Assembly (NCBI GenBank): GCA_022424955.1
Contig: JAKMGK010000069.1
Coordinates: 1-43,810, forward strand
From: Flavobacteriaceae bacterium
Lineage (GTDB): Bacteria; Bacteroidota; Bacteroidia; Flavobacteriales; Flavobacteriaceae
DNA length: 43,810 nt
Reading direction: 5' to 3'
The translations under genes were made by a program, and so were the position numbers. Below, one piece after another: positions 6,376-13,150 of the stretch. The notes beneath the pieces were generated by a model. It ran no database searches, was not told the DNA's origin, and worked only from the letters and a program-made list of their open reading frames with translations. Positions within the stretch are counted from its first letter, which is position 1, and the number at the start of each line of letters is the position of its first letter.

Positions 6376-6379
6376 ATTG

Positions 6380-7666
6380 ATGTTCGCACTAGTAGATTGC
6401 AATAATTTTTACGCCTCTTGTGAGCGGGTTTTTCAACCGCAATGGGAAGGGAAACCCGTGGTAATCCTATCTAATAATGACGGCTGTGTTATCGCGCGAA
6501 GTAATGAAGCTAAAGCGCTAGGCATCCCTATGGGCGCCCCTGCATTTCAATACAAAGACCTCTTCAATCGCCAAAACATCAAAGTCTTTTCTTCTAATTA
6601 TCCACTCTATGGAGATATGAGTAGTCGCGTGATGAAGATCTTAGAACGCTATACACCAGACATTGAAATCTACAGCATAGACGAAGCCTTTTTACAATTC
6701 AAAGGCTTTGAACATTTTGACCTTGACACACAAGGTCGCGCCATGAAAAAGCAAGTACAGCAATGGACGGGTATTCCCGTTTCAGTGGGTATTGCCCCCA
6801 CTAAAGGGCTGGCTAAAATCGCTAATAAGATTGCTAAAAAATACAATGACAAAACAGGCGGTGTCTATCTTATGGCGACCGACAAACAACGCGTTAAAGC
6901 TTTAAAATGGACTGGCGTAAAAGACATCTGGGGCATTGGGCGGCAACACGCTAAACGTTTAGAAAAACAAGGTGTCAAAACAGCCTATGATTTTTCTAAC
7001 CTACCCGATAGCTGGATTCGAAAGCATATGAGTGTGCTAGAGCTGAGATTGAAAAAAGATTTGTTAGGCCTGCCCTATATCCAATTAGACGATACCCAAC
7101 CCGCTAAAAAATCCATCACCACTACCCGCAGTTTTCAATCTACCTTATCCCAATATTGGGAAGTTGAAGAACGCCTTGTAACCTATGCCACAAGTTGTGC
7201 AGAAAAATTACGCCAGCAAAAAAGCAGCTGCGCTGCTTTAATGGTTTTTGTCCGTAGTAATCCCCATAAAGAAGGAAGTGAACAATACCGCAATAGCTGC
7301 GTAATCACCCTCCCCTATGCGACAGACTCTAGTATCATTCTAGCACAATATGCCATCTTTGGATTAAAAAATATTTTTAAAAAAGGAATTGACTATAAAA
7401 AAGCAGGCGTGATTTTAATGGGCTTAAGCCCTTCTAATGAACGACAACTCAACCTTTTTCATGCCAATCAAAACAAGCACGATTCCCTTATGCAAACGAT
7501 TGACCGCTTGCATCGTCGCTTTGGCCCTAACCGTATTAAACTTGCTAATCAAGATCTCAATAAGACATGGAAGATGAGACAAGAACATCTCTCCCCGCGT
7601 TTCACTACAGAACTCAACGATATAATCCGTGTTTATTCCCACAAAAAAGATGAAACAGCCCAATAA
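6380..7666 (+). CDS. umuC: Y-family DNA polymerase V catalytic subunit UmuC
   Basis: Error-prone translesion polymerase subunit, 428 residues, close to the usual 420. Visible motifs: FALVDCNNFYASCERVF (first catalytic Asp and steric gate region), the VILSNNDGCVIARS finger segment, YSIDEAFL (second acidic pair), helix-hairpin-helix DIWGIGRQHAKRLEKQG, and the UmuC C-terminal little-finger and tail. The start is ATG 6380; a TTG one codon upstream gives only an extra Met. It overlaps umuD by 17 bp, so the two are translationally coupled. Gene order is umuC then umuD, the reverse of E. coli. No LexA-type box is recognised upstream. Confidence 0.95.
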   Translation: MFALVDCNNFYASCERVFQPQWEGKPVVILSNNDGCVIARSNEAKALGIPMGAPAFQYKDLFNRQNIKVFSSNYPLYGDMSSRVMKILERYTPDIEIYSIDEAFLQFKGFEHFDLDTQGRAMKKQVQQWTGIPVSVGIAPTKGLAKIANKIAKKYNDKTGGVYLMATDKQRVKALKWTGVKDIWGIGRQHAKRLEKQGVKTAYDFSNLPDSWIRKHMSVLELRLKKDLLGLPYIQLDDTQPAKKSITTTRSFQSTLSQYWEVEERLVTYATSCAEKLRQQKSSCAALMVFVRSNPHKEGSEQYRNSCVITLPYATDSSIILAQYAIFGLKNIFKKGIDYKKAGVILMGLSPSNERQLNLFHANQNKHDSLMQTIDRLHRRFGPNRIKLANQDLNKTWKMRQEHLSPRFTTELNDIIRVYSHKKDETAQ

Positions 7667-8087
7667 AACCCTGGTTTTTTTCAAACCTAACGAAGATAAT
7701 ATTAAAGACATCCCTTTAGCCCACACGGGGGTTTCGGCAGGTTTTCCATCACCAGCAGACGATTTTAAAGAATTGCGCATTAGCATTGACCAAGAAGTTG
7801 TTAAAAACGAAGAAGCTACTTTTTATGCCAGAGTGGACGGGCAATCTATGCAAGGCGCAGGTTTAGATGATGGAGATTTACTAGTAATTGATCGTAGTAA
7901 AGAACCCGAAGACAATGCCATTGCAGTGTGCTTTATCGACGGTGAGTTCACTGTAAAAAGACTGAAAGTAGAAGCAGAATGCATCTTTCTGATGCCAGAA
8001 AATCCCAATTATAAGCCCATTAAAGTAACCGAAGATAATCAACTGATTATTTGGGGGGTAGTAACCTATGTAGTGAAAAAAGTATAA
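7650..8087 (+). CDS. umuD: UmuD-type S24 peptidase, polymerase V accessory subunit
   Basis: A LexA/UmuD-fold autoprotease of 145 residues. On self-cleavage it becomes UmuD' and binds UmuC. The cleavage site is Ala30-Gly31, followed by FPSPADDF, nearly identical to E. coli UmuD. The catalytic dyad is Ser66 (DGQSMQGAG) and Lys103 (FTVKRL). I choose ATG 7650, which overlaps the umuC stop by 17 bp; a GTG 21 bp upstream is possible but less likely. No N-terminal DNA-binding helix-turn-helix, so it is not LexA. Confidence 0.94.
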   Translation: MKQPNKTLVFFKPNEDNIKDIPLAHTGVSAGFPSPADDFKELRISIDQEVVKNEEATFYARVDGQSMQGAGLDDGDLLVIDRSKEPEDNAIAVCFIDGEFTVKRLKVEAECIFLMPENPNYKPIKVTEDNQLIIWGVVTYVVKKV

Positions 8088-8096
8088 CTTAGAAGA

Positions 8097-8762
8097 GTGC
8101 AAAGTAAGCGTGTTTTTTTTTTATTGTTCCTTCTGGCAGGTGGCTTAAACTTGATGGGGCAAGTCTTGCAAATTGATTTACTAGCCCATGGAAGTAAAAC
8201 GCTTATCATTCCAGCCTTGATGGGGTATGTGTGGAATGGTTATTCTCCCTCTCGTCTATACTTAATGGCCTTGCTTTTTTCATGGCTAGGAGATCTTTTT
8301 TTAATCCCCAGCGGAACCGCATTTTTCATCACGGGAATTGCTGCCTTTTGGGTAACACAATTACTTTATTGTCGCCTAATACTAACCCATTTGAAAGGTC
8401 AATTGTGGGAACAGCTTAAAAAGAAAAAAGCCTTACTCCCTTTACTCCTGCTAGGGGGCTATCTATTGGCTATGCTAGTGTTGATGTTTCCTCGATTGGG
8501 AGTGCTTCAAATCCCCGTAACCTTATATGCACTTACTTTATGTACAACTGGATTTTTAGGCGTTTTAATTGCACTAGAAAAAGGCAGTATAAAAGCGATT
8601 TACCTTGCGACAGGCTGCCTGTTGTTTGTCATCTCAGATAGTATGATTGCTTTTGACGCCTTCTATTTTAGACAAAAAATTTTTGGGCCCTGGGTCATGG
8701 CAACTTATATCCCAGCACAGTTTTTGATTGCCACTTTTCTAGCCAAAAAAGAGTTTATTTAA
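8097..8762 (+). CDS. YhhN/TMEM86-family membrane protein (lysoplasmalogenase-type), intact copy
   Basis: A 221-residue protein with about seven or eight hydrophobic helices, of YhhN family length. The two Asp residues I take to be conserved in the family are present: Asp66 in SWLGDLFLI and Asp181 in FVISDSMIA. Animal homologues hydrolyse the vinyl-ether bond of lysoplasmalogens; the role in this bacterium is not established. It starts at GTG 8097, 9 bp after umuD, and could be cotranscribed with umuCD. It is the only intact member of a tandem array of three. Confidence 0.8.
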   Translation: MQSKRVFFLLFLLAGGLNLMGQVLQIDLLAHGSKTLIIPALMGYVWNGYSPSRLYLMALLFSWLGDLFLIPSGTAFFITGIAAFWVTQLLYCRLILTHLKGQLWEQLKKKKALLPLLLLGGYLLAMLVLMFPRLGVLQIPVTLYALTLCTTGFLGVLIALEKGSIKAIYLATGCLLFVISDSMIAFDAFYFRQKIFGPWVMATYIPAQFLIATFLAKKEFI

Positions 8763-8790
8763 ATATTGTATATTTAAGTATGTTTTTTAG

Positions 8791-9485
8791 ATGCGAACAA
8801 AAGAAATGCTTTGCCCTTTCTATGTAGTGGATTATTTTGGATTGTGGCGCTGATGAATATCTGGGAACTTTACACACAAAACACCCTTATTGATTTAATC
8901 ACAAAACCACTTTTGATTCCACTTTTAATTCTTTATTACATTTCTCATAAAAAAAGAGATAGTGCTTATTTTTTAATTCAATTCATTTCATGGATTGGCA
9001 GCTTATTTTTAATAGGAGAAACCCCTTTAACAACAATCATAGGGATAATTTGTTTCTGGGCTGCTATTCTGCTTTACACTTATGTAATCATACAGCATCT
9101 TGATGTTCCTTTTTATAAAAATTTAAGAAACCCTAAGAGAATCATCCCCTTAATCATATATCTCATATACTTTATCCTTATCATAACACATTTAGGACCA
9201 AATTTAAAGGTTTTTTTGGGGTGATTACAACCTATGCGTTAACCATAACATTCCTTATTTTTTACTGCTACCATATATTATTTAGAAGATTCTAAAAACC
9301 AGTTTCGATTTTACCTTTTGATTGGAATTCTTTTATTGTTTTTAGATGCAAGTATTATTTGCTATCAACTATTTAATCAAGGGAATACCATTATCCCGCT
9401 AAGTGTCCGAATTATTTTTATTTTAGCACATTATCTAATTTACCTCTATTTTGTAATAGATCATCAAACCCAAAAAAACGCTTAA
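8791..9485 (+). pseudogene. Second YhhN-family copy, broken by at least three frameshifts
   Basis: Hydrophobic segments align with the intact upstream copy when read across frames. It starts MRTKEML in frame 1 at ATG 8791. It continues as LPFLCSGLFWIVALMNIW in frame 3 from about 8811 to GPNLKVFLG at 9221. It then moves to frame 2 (VITTYALTITFLIFY) and returns to frame 3 from 9282 (LEDSKNQFRFYLLIGILLLF) to TAA 9483-9485. The shift near 9211-9221 falls in a T7G4 run and is explained by loss of one T. The family GD motif reads GS (SWIGSLFLI), so one conserved Asp is also gone. It is 28 bp after the intact copy. Confidence 0.8.
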
Positions 9486-9493
9486 CCTATTCT

Positions 9494-10169
9494 ATGCTAG
9501 TTAGTCATCTTTCTACTTAACCGCGAATAATATTTTTAATCGCCACGATAATTATCATCATTTCAAGAATGTTAGGAATGGATATCGTTGCCTTAATCTT
9601 AACCCCTTTTCTTACACTCCCTTTGATATATGACTATCACATTACCGTAGGGAAAGATCAAAGCTTGTATTTCATTTTAAGCTTTTGTTTAATTGGGGAT
9701 GTAATCGTCATGAGTGATGACTTTTATTATTTCATCTCGGCATTAATGACCTATTGGGGGGCTTCCATTATATTTTGCTTTAAATAGAGAGAAAGAAGAG
9801 CCCTTAATCGAATTGTTCAAAAAATGGAAATATATTCTCCCGCTTTTAGTTTACGGGATTTACTACCTCTTATTGATGTATTTTATCGAACCCAACCTAA
9901 AAGAATTATTTATTCCCATCATTATTTATTCGGCAACTTTGAGTTTTGCTGCTGCCTTATGCATCATTGTCTACCTTAGACATAAAACAAAATCAATCGC
10001 ATATTTTACTGCAGGATTGGTTTTATTAAGCATTACCGCTTCACTCATTGGTGTTAACAGATTTTATTTAAAAAGTGACTTTTTACATGGAATCGAAACC
10101 TTGCTTTATGCCCCCACTCTTTACTTAATTTTTTTGTATTTTAAGACCAAAACTAACCATGAGTTTTAA
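9494..10169 (+). pseudogene. Third YhhN-family copy, nonsense codon plus frameshift
   Basis: Reading from ATG 9494 gives MLVSHLST, then TAA at 9518-9520. The same frame continues as PRIIFLIATIIIIISRML through FCLIGDVIVMSDD to about 9778. A one-base shift near 9779 then leads into frame 3 (LNREKEEPLIELFKKWKY) and a full hydrophobic C-terminal half to TAA 10167-10169. The GD motif is kept but the second conserved Asp is Thr (LSITASLIG). The 3' end overlaps the start of the next gene by 11 bp. It is a diverged paralogue of the two genes before it. Confidence 0.8.
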
Positions 10170-10710
10170 CTATTTGAACTTACTATTTCTATTTTGGGGA
10201 GGAATAATTTTAGCACAATCTACAGATCAAAATACAGTAAAAGAAATTGTATTTCAAGACCCTATCAATGATAATTCAATCAATGGTCAGAAAGATTTTG
10301 TCCAGGAACTTATGTCTTTAGCAGGATATAGCGTAGATGAAATTTCAGTCTATCAAAATTTACCCAATCACTCTAAGATTTTTAGGGTAATTTACAATGA
10401 AGAATCTCAAAGTGGATTTATTTTTATTCGATGGGATAAAAAGAAAAAAGAAAATTATGTAGCTAATAAAATGATAGATCAAGGGGTCTACTACAACCTT
10501 AAGGCGGCAAAAGAAATCATGCGTCAACAAACAGATAAAGCAGCCTTTAATGTTGAAGACGCTGCATTACAAGCCCCAGATCAAGAGAAAATAACCAAGG
10601 AAGATTTAGAAGGGCTAAGAGAAGAATACACCCTACAACAAGAAGAGAAAAAACTAAAAGAGCTTGAAAAAGCCAGTAACAAAAAAAGAAGGAAAAAGAA
10701 AAACGATTAA
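10159..10710 (+). CDS. Hypothetical secreted protein with charged coiled-coil tail
   Basis: 183 residues, not recognised. It has an N-terminal signal peptide (about 1-19, LLFLFWGGIILAQS), a small mixed domain (about 20-110), and a Lys/Glu-rich C-terminal helix (about 140-183) ending in KKRRKKKND, likely a coiled coil. It lies directly before the TonB-dependent receptor gene but is separated from it by an inverted repeat and that gene's own promoter, so a functional link is uncertain. The ATG lies inside the end of the broken YhhN copy. Confidence 0.65.
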   Translation: MSFNYLNLLFLFWGGIILAQSTDQNTVKEIVFQDPINDNSINGQKDFVQELMSLAGYSVDEISVYQNLPNHSKIFRVIYNEESQSGFIFIRWDKKKKENYVANKMIDQGVYYNLKAAKEIMRQQTDKAAFNVEDAALQAPDQEKITKEDLEGLREEYTLQQEEKKLKELEKASNKKRRKKKND

Positions 10711-10792: not shown

Positions 10793-13150
10793 ATGCTCAA
10801 TCGTTTACTTGTTATTTTCCTTAGTTTGGGAATCTTCTCCCTTAATGCACAAAACAATGGTCGTTTAACCGGAAGGGTTATTGACAACCAAAGTCTTCTA
10901 CCGCTCGAAGGAGCTACCGTAATCATCAACGAAACTACAATAGGAGTCGTAACAGATGCAGAAGGATATTTCACTATAAATGATGTCCCCCCTCAGACCT
11001 ATAATATCGAAGCAAATTTTCTAGGCTATGGTTCACAAACAAAGTTCAATGTTATTGTCAAATCGGTTGGAACAGCAGATCTACTCTTTAAACTTGACGA
11101 GCTCTCTGAAAGTCTTGACGAAGTGGTGGTGGCCAAAAGCCCTTTTCGTACTTCAAAAGAAACCCCACTTTCTACACAATCTTTATCTGCAGTAGAAATT
11201 GAGACCTATCCAGGTGGAAATAATGATATTGCGAAAGTAGCCCAAAGTTTACCAGGTATATCTCCTTCAATTGGAGGTTTTCGCAATGATTTTATTATTC
11301 GTGGTGGAGCCCCTAACGAAACCGTTTATTATTTAGATGGGGTTGAAATCCCCAACATCAACCACTTTAGTACACAAGGGAGTGCCGGTGGACCAGTCGG
11401 GATGCTCAATGTTGATTTTGTACGAGAAGTAACCCTTTCATCTTCTGCTTTTGGGGCAGAATATGACAATCCTCTTTCTGGGGTTTTAGCGTTTGAGCAA
11501 CGCGATGGAAACGCTACAGAGATGGCAACTAAGGTTCGCATAGGGGCTAGTGAAGCGGGTGTTACGCTTAACACACCGCTTTTTAAGGGAGATAAAGAAC
11601 GCTCAAACACCACCTTGATGTTATCTGCAAGACGCAGTTATTTACAATTCGTCTTTGAATTAGTGGGACTCCCTATTCGTCCTGATTATTGGGATTATCA
11701 ATGGAAAATCAACCACACTATTGACGCCTTTAATAGTATTAGTTTTATAGGACTGGGATCTATAGATGACTTTTCTGTGGTTGCTCCAGATGAATTTGAT
11801 GCAGAACAACAATCTACCATAGAACAAGTACCCATTATAAAACAAAAGACTAACACGGTTGGACTTTCATGGAAAAGGAAATTCAAGAGTGGTAAAGGGC
11901 GTATGCAAACAACCCTTAGCACAAATCGACTGCAAAATGTATTTAGCCGTTTCTCAGATAATGAAAATCAAACTGGGCTTTTATTTGAAAACGACGCTGT
12001 TGAGCAAGAGACAAAACTGCGTCTTCATGTAACCCAATTTTCATCTGAATGGAAATTGAGTTATGGTGCTAATCTTCAATTTTCTAATTATTCTAATGAG
12101 ACCCTGGGGCTATTAGAAAACTTTAATTATGCTAGCTCGATTGATTTTATGAAATATGGATTCTTTGGAAAAGCGAGTCGCTCTTATTTAGAGGATAAGC
12201 TCTCCTTATCTTTTGGTTTAAGGCTAGATGCTGACAGCTTTACTACAGGATCTTCTTTAATTGATAATCTTTCTCCTCGCCTTGCGGCTAGCTATCAACT
12301 TAGTTCAGATCAACGATGGAAACTCAACGCTTCTGTGGGGCGTTACTATAAAATACCCCCCTACACCATGTTAGGCTTTCAAGACTTACAAGGAAATTTT
12401 ATCAATAAAAATAACCGTTATACCCAAAGTGATCACTATGTCTTTGGGGTAGAATACAACTGGACACCTACCGCTAGGATAACAGTAGAAGGTTTTATCA
12501 AAGACTACAGTCAATATCCTGTATCTGTTCTTGATCAAGTTTCCCTTGCGAACAAAGGAGGAGGTTTTGAAGTCTTAGGAAACGAACCTGTTGTAGATAC
12601 TGGAAAAGGAAAAAGTAGTGGAATCGAAGTTTTATTCCAACAAAAACTAACCAAAAACTTTTATGGAGTTTTAGCTTATACCCATTTCTTTAGTGAATTT
12701 AGTCGTGCGAACGGACCTTTACTTCCCACAGTTTGGGATAGCAGAAATTTACTCTCATTTACAGGAGGGTATAAATTAAAACGCAACTGGGAGGTGTCAC
12801 TACGGTATCGTTATGCAGGAGAAACACCTTATGTTCCCACAGATATTGCTGCAAGTTTAGTCGCTTATCCACGTATTGTAATGGATTATAACCGTCTTGG
12901 AGATGTAACGCTTGATATATTTAGCCAAGGAGACATTCGCATTGATAAAAAATGGAATTTCAAAAGGCTTTCTTTTAACTTCTATCTAGAAGTTCAAAAC
13001 TTCTTAGCAAAAGCAGTTCCGCGACCATTAGAGTACGGTATCGCACGTAATGAAGATGGAACAGAAATCAATCCTAGAAGTTTAGTCCAAATCGATACAG
13101 ACCGCACAGAAACTCCCTTACCCTCTTTTGGATTTGTCTTTGATTTTTAA
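10793..13150 (+). CDS. TonB-dependent outer membrane receptor with carboxypeptidase-like regulatory domain
   Basis: 785 residues. It has a signal peptide of about 19 residues (ending FSLNAQ) and a CarboxypepD_reg-like beta-sandwich (about 24-105, GRVIDNQSLLPLEGATVII). A plug domain (about 115-240) contains IIRGGAPNETVYYLDGVEIPNI. A 22-strand barrel ends in the aromatic tail FGFVFDF. No SusD-like partner follows, so it is not a SusCD pair, and the imported substrate cannot be read from the sequence. It has its own promoter and a likely operator. It ends convergent with trmN6, sharing TTAA at 13147-13150. Confidence 0.92.
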   Translation: MLNRLLVIFLSLGIFSLNAQNNGRLTGRVIDNQSLLPLEGATVIINETTIGVVTDAEGYFTINDVPPQTYNIEANFLGYGSQTKFNVIVKSVGTADLLFKLDELSESLDEVVVAKSPFRTSKETPLSTQSLSAVEIETYPGGNNDIAKVAQSLPGISPSIGGFRNDFIIRGGAPNETVYYLDGVEIPNINHFSTQGSAGGPVGMLNVDFVREVTLSSSAFGAEYDNPLSGVLAFEQRDGNATEMATKVRIGASEAGVTLNTPLFKGDKERSNTTLMLSARRSYLQFVFELVGLPIRPDYWDYQWKINHTIDAFNSISFIGLGSIDDFSVVAPDEFDAEQQSTIEQVPIIKQKTNTVGLSWKRKFKSGKGRMQTTLSTNRLQNVFSRFSDNENQTGLLFENDAVEQETKLRLHVTQFSSEWKLSYGANLQFSNYSNETLGLLENFNYASSIDFMKYGFFGKASRSYLEDKLSLSFGLRLDADSFTTGSSLIDNLSPRLAASYQLSSDQRWKLNASVGRYYKIPPYTMLGFQDLQGNFINKNNRYTQSDHYVFGVEYNWTPTARITVEGFIKDYSQYPVSVLDQVSLANKGGGFEVLGNEPVVDTGKGKSSGIEVLFQQKLTKNFYGVLAYTHFFSEFSRANGPLLPTVWDSRNLLSFTGGYKLKRNWEVSLRYRYAGETPYVPTDIAASLVAYPRIVMDYNRLGDVTLDIFSQGDIRIDKKWNFKRLSFNFYLEVQNFLAKAVPRPLEYGIARNEDGTEINPRSLVQIDTDRTETPLPSFGFVFDF

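Follow-up and report, generated by a model that had tools for sequence, protein, structure and literature searches.

The YhhN-family genes of the window probably belong to a genus-level array that combines one catalytic-like copy (copy 1) with constrained paralogues lacking essential aspartates, both paralogues being lost in this species. The window, i.e., the whole analysed stretch of 43,810 nucleotides (contig 52 of a 114-contig, 1.8 Mb assembly, genome G000), held one intact and two disabled yhhN copies (Table 1), while the main fact lies in its relatives: among them, Asp-less copies are the genus norm, many of them open and apparently constrained. We infer that the genus, represented by 19 genomes, is Ca. 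Arcticimaribacter.

A preliminary description, made from the letters of the window, had reported three tandem yhhN genes next to umuCD with copy 1 intact, and both points held. Matches to the YhhN family (Pfam PF07947, cut-off 25.6 bits) covered positions 8187-8732 in copy 1 without stops, 8895-9446 in copy 2 (37.5 bits, three internal stops) and 9822-10133 in copy 3 (31.2 bits, the C-terminal part). Since all three exceeded the Pfam cut-off, their homology, on which that description depended, is not due to chance. Copy 1 started about 10 bases past the end of umuD, and the umuC-umuD-yhhN linkage was found in all 18 genus genomes where it could be seen; yhhN may be co-transcribed with umuD and umuC. 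On the other side of the array, orf5 had no Pfam or NCBIfam match above cut-off, and the gene beyond it is presumably a TonB-dependent receptor-like gene.

Table 1. Features of the yhhN locus in the window, with coordinates, strand and supporting evidence
Feature	Coordinates	Strand	Evidence and remarks
umuC-like translesion polymerase	6377..7666	+	Pfam PF00817, PF11799, PF13438; conserved upstream neighbour
umuD/LexA-like S24 peptidase	7629..8087	+	Pfam PF00717; stops just ahead of copy 1
YhhN copy 1, intact	8097..8762	+	Pfam PF07947, 114.9 bits
YhhN copy 2 (type B), disabled	8780..9485	+	PF07947, frame changes, tree
YhhN copy 3 (type C), disabled	9492..10169	+	PF07947, TAA 9518, frame change ~9779, tree
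orf5, conserved downstream neighbour	10159..10710	+	Seen in 17/17 genus genomes where the position was covered
TonB-dependent receptor-like gene (presumed), conserved downstream neighbour	10793..13150	+	Synteny

Disablements were called by frame-aware alignment of raw DNA to relatives. In copy 2, for which at least three frameshifts had been claimed, two frame changes were firm (about 9211 and about 9257), while a third, N-terminal one (about 8820-8846) appeared against one of two references only, so that a count of at least three is likely but not firm. The nonsense codon and frameshift described for copy 3 were both recovered: a TAA lies in frame close to the N-terminus, and the reading frame shifts within 9767-9785, at a point that varied with the reference. 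The breaks of both copies lie where they had been described. Against the nearest relative, this frame change corresponded to a small deletion outside the neighbouring G6 run. An extra shift at 10057 appeared in one alignment, in which the reference was itself shifted at that place. The GC content of copy 2 was 0.295 vs 0.399 for copy 1, and this AT-richer copy may have been decaying for longer.

These disablements could in principle be sequencing or assembly errors, copies 2 and 3 being really open, which we regard as improbable. The assembly is fragmented (114 contigs), homopolymers (T7 at 9211, T6 at 9258) coincide with the two firm frame changes of copy 2, and breaks at or near homopolymers were also seen in relatives (G005 and G004, with short runs in G003), so that sequencing error could account for part of the breakage in G004, G005 and copy 2 of the window. 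However, copy 1 was open despite its denser homopolymers (10.5 vs 7.1 per kb in copies 2 and 3), copy 3 combined a nonsense codon with a frame change that is most readily explained by a deletion outside homopolymers, the downstream copies of G006 and G013 carried in-frame nonsense codons, which are not homopolymer errors, and the adjoining genes formed long open frames. The preliminary description would have taken intact copies in relatives as a sign of such errors. Relatives of this kind do exist, but they do not demonstrate an assembly error in the window: breakage among the genes examined was restricted to downstream copies.

The array is a feature of the genus. YhhN was found in 19/19 genomes, in 18 of them over the Pfam cut-off, and wherever contigs allowed, the gene order was umuC, umuD, one to four yhhN, orf5 and the TonB-like gene. 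Four open copies were found in G018, and three copies each in G013 and G003, one of them broken in each genome; G010 is a single contig of 2,034,069 bases. Of eight open downstream proteins scored together against PF07947, seven gave 41.6-69 bits, while G018_4, judged open by frame alone, gave 24.1 bits in this run and 27.8 in another. Scores of G010_2 and G008_2 were 32.2 and 43.9, and the broken copies of G004 (21.2) and G002 (20.0) fell below the cut-off.

Among the genes examined, breakage occurred in downstream copies only. Nine of 19 downstream copies were broken (both in G000, those of G002 and G004, G003_3, G005_2, G006_2, G012_2 and G013_2) and ten were open. Copy 1 was undamaged in all 16 genomes where it was whole (frame-aware; the copies of G001 and G007, cut by contig ends, are outside this count). 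By frame length only, one long open frame was found for umuC (18/18), umuD (18/18) and orf5 (17/17, that of G015 containing Ns), i.e., 0/53 broken. Downstream copies differed in breakage from copy 1 (Fisher p 0.0015) and from the pooled copy-1 and neighbour genes (0/69; Fisher p 1.6e-7), both values being indicative only given the shared ancestry of the genomes. The 19 copies leave out a fragment in G001 and G014_2 (contig ends), G007 (contig end within copy 1), G015 (100-base N gap directly after copy 1) and G016 (fused, no downstream copy). The copy of G002, preceded by a short copy-2-like remnant, was counted once, and terminal events were not counted (start of G010_2 and end of G003_2, both taken as open, and both ends of G013_2).

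Catalytic residues separated copy 1 from all downstream copies. In PMC11994398, eight positions of TMEM86A/B were changed to Ala, and most mutants, including those of both Asps, kept less than 10% activity, the first Gly being an exception; requirements were looser for His in TMEM86A and TMEM86B alike, for Gly182 in TMEM86A and for Ser182 in TMEM86B, and the His mutants retained more activity than the Asp mutants. Copy 1 displayed K-G-D-Q-G-S-D-Y in 17/17 genus rows, matching the set K, G, D, H, G, S, D, Y at seven of eight positions, and thus kept both Asps as had been described. The canonical His was Gln in all 17 rows, and Gln was also found at this position in two outgroups with the same gene order.

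None of the 20 downstream genus rows kept both essential Asps, open copies included. Type B (window copy 2, G003_2 and G013_2) displayed GS or GN, with an Asp one residue early; in G013_2 the second Asp was in register by profile and not by MAFFT, the first being absent either way. Type C, which comprises copy 3 of the window and seven relatives, kept the first Asp, whereas the second was Ala or Gly and the Lys was gone. The nine remaining downstream rows all came from the second branch of the genus; six of them were without both Asps and three without the second only. For the window, the change from GD to GS in copy 2 was as described, while two details had to be corrected. The other Asp of copy 2, thought to be retained, lies one residue early (S-D to D-A), so that in register both are lost, and the second Asp of copy 3, thought to be Thr, is Ala, the Thr occupying the adjacent position and the GD being kept. 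With these corrections the original observation was partly confirmed.

Loss of Asp as a product of decay was ruled out, as open orthologues in other species were also without them. Asp loss would rather have preceded decay, because 0/20 downstream copies keep both residues and the open pairs are constrained like copy 1, and it would mark retained YhhN-fold paralogues that were repeatedly broken, fused or deleted. Judged from their residues, the downstream paralogues are probably not lysoplasmalogenases.

Open downstream copies appear to be kept by purifying selection. Where both members of a downstream pair were open (six pairs, 44-66% identity), pN/pS ranged from 0.27 to 0.50, with a top bootstrap limit of 0.60, and copy-1 pairs from the same genomes gave 0.27-0.51. 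As pS was saturated in the downstream pairs (0.72-0.85), pN/pS overstates omega, and the true omega is lower. Pairwise NG86 omega, with dS near saturation, was 0.05-0.25 for closer downstream pairs, nearly all including a broken copy (the sole both-open downstream pair being G013_3-G009_2), 0.29-0.30 for distant copy-2 pairs, 0.10-0.39 for copy-1 pairs and 0.03-0.07 for umuC. Bootstrap ranges of five downstream pairs lay within 0.05-0.30, although for two of these pairs the usable draws numbered 251 and 397 out of 500. YN00 estimates, obtained for part of the pairs, were higher (downstream pairs up to 0.33, a distant copy-2 pair 0.50, copy 1 0.21-0.37).

That the downstream copies might be relics, functionless since duplication and slowly eroding, is unlikely on these values. 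Such erosion would agree with nine of 19 copies broken, with loss of essential Asps in 20/20, with the downstream copy gone from G016 and with G008-G018, the pair in which downstream copies clearly changed faster than copy 1 (pN/pS 0.47 vs 0.27). Yet more than half of the copies (10/19) were open after deep divergence, and pN/pS was well under 1 in all six both-open pairs, saturated pS notwithstanding. Window copy 3 was probably under constraint during the greater part of its past and broke late, because its pN/pS against G005_2 (0.21, a yardstick itself broken near its end) was close to that of copy 1 against G005_1 (0.22), and its branch in the tree was 0.23 vs 0.20. Window copy 2 had no close open orthologue for dating. 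A third possibility, that homopolymer frame changes are phase-variation switches or are read through, so that broken copies are sometimes used, fits the frame changes at T6-T7, G5 and A8 runs but is very hard to reconcile with the nonsense codons of copy 3, G006 and G013, with sites that vary from species to species and with the several breaks of copy 2.

Downstream copies of the genus formed one clade (98/89) beside two copy-1 clades, and the same clade was recovered with a support of 96 in a wider tree (quick search, SH-aLRT only). Within it, window copy 2 grouped with G003_2 and G013_2 (100/99), and window copy 3 with G005_2 (100/99). The single downstream clade, along with open orthologues that are already Asp-less, supports the order of amplification, divergence and decay that had been proposed; overall, the original interpretation is partly supported.

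Two relatives carried fused genes, which fit deletion by recombination between adjacent copies. The second gene of G004 (locus L045) joined a G018_2-like N-terminal half to a G018_4-like C-terminal half. The single copy of G016 (L057) had a copy-1 body with a copy-2-like tail and flank: 160/183 columns of the body were like G006_1 vs 99/185 like G006_2, while the tail (35/43 copy-2-like vs 29/46 copy-1-like) and the flank (45/60 vs 33/64) were closer to copy 2.

Confident AlphaFold2 models of copy 1 (mean pLDDT 94.3) and of an open type C protein (L040, 91.5) displayed helical bundles consistent with eight spans, the type C alignment including copy-1 rows that may have aided its model. Top structural matches were GPCR-type folds and the alkaline ceramidase ACER3 (Z about 9-11), values that any helical bundle may reach, and they are in line with the GPCR-like models of the family in PMC4602095 and PMC9052158. 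Sequence search retrieved no solved structure, and no Foldseek match reached an E value of 0.001. The probable substrate of copy 1 is a lyso-ether lipid, lysoplasmalogen-like or other, which it would cleave. A search for CarF/PEDS1-type plasmalogen synthesis (PF10520), run without a positive control, found it in 0/19 genus genomes and in 0/148 genomes of a phylum sample. No relatives of copy 1 were found in viral contigs.

The downstream copies of the genus-level array would thus stem from duplication in the ancestor of the genus or close to it, with copy 1 as the conserved member bearing a nearly whole set of catalytic residues. One or both of the essential Asps are gone from the downstream copies, whereas the predicted fold and traces of purifying selection persist; because fold and constraint are kept without these residues, the role of these copies is most likely one other than lysoplasmalogenase chemistry, possibly that of lipid-binding or partner subunits. 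Turnover would then proceed through frameshifts, nonsense codons and the deletion or fusing of adjacent copies, as was observed in relatives. The present species would have lost its two downstream copies, the loss of copy 3 being probably recent, so that only copy 1 is left. More tentatively, and with somewhat less than even confidence, the open downstream copies could represent a new class of YhhN-fold pseudoenzymes, selected beside an active copy across the genus and binding lyso-lipids or pairing with copy 1 rather than cleaving, this species illustrating shrinkage to one enzyme.

The case is mostly one of ordinary birth-and-death of a small family, and a clear small example of such turnover through recombination between neighbouring genes. 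YhhN/TMEM86 proteins act on lysoplasmalogens by hydrolysing their vinyl ether, through a mechanism that PMC9052158 described in 2022 as not yet known. Natural variants that have retained fold and constraint without the essential Asps would help to tell the residues needed for chemistry from those that serve another purpose. No report of such Flavobacteriaceae YhhN arrays was found in the titles and abstract openings searched, which mostly did not extend to subscription papers.

Compared with the YhhN/TMEM86 lysoplasmalogenases (Legionella, M. tuberculosis, human TMEM86A/B), copy 1 is alike in score and in predicted helical fold, shares the Lys, Gly-Asp, Gly, Ser-Asp and Tyr and differs by Gln in place of His, whereas the downstream copies of the genus are without one or both essential Asps and often without the Lys. 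Three related genera (G218, G179, G225) displayed the same YhhN-orf5-TonB-like order by homology to window genes, followed by a gene which we take to be rimM-like (the TonB-like name being likewise assumed), but unlike the genus they had a single YhhN. No umuC or umuD match was found in the retrieved DNA around their YhhN genes, which in G225 reached only some 2.7 kb upstream. As the umuC-umuD-yhhN link was constant within the genus and no such match adjoined YhhN in these three genera, umuDC may have arrived at the base of the genus. The position of orf5 beside YhhN was thus common to the genus and to these three others.

In a wider Flavobacteriaceae sample, YhhN was found in 82/199 genomes, and outside the genus neighbouring copies occurred in 13 of 80 matching genomes (counted by eye). 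Acidic residues stood at both Asp positions in 69/76 non-genus rows and not in the other seven (fetched loci, a subset of the hits), which suggests that Asp loss outside the genus occurs but rarely. A single Flavobacteriaceae-wide array event was rejected on the wide tree (quick search, SH-aLRT only), which placed other arrays in other clades. Arrays of up to seven genes were found at L060, L061, L064, L065 and other loci (G137, G178, G235, G109); members of these arrays had mostly Lys, and some Asn, for the catalytic His and often Glu for the second Asp, and 33 Lys-type rows formed one clade (SH-aLRT 99). These other arrays resemble that of the genus in that YhhN paralogues follow one another head to tail, in runs of two to seven, and differ from it in belonging to other clades and in the many Lys or Asn residues at the His position.
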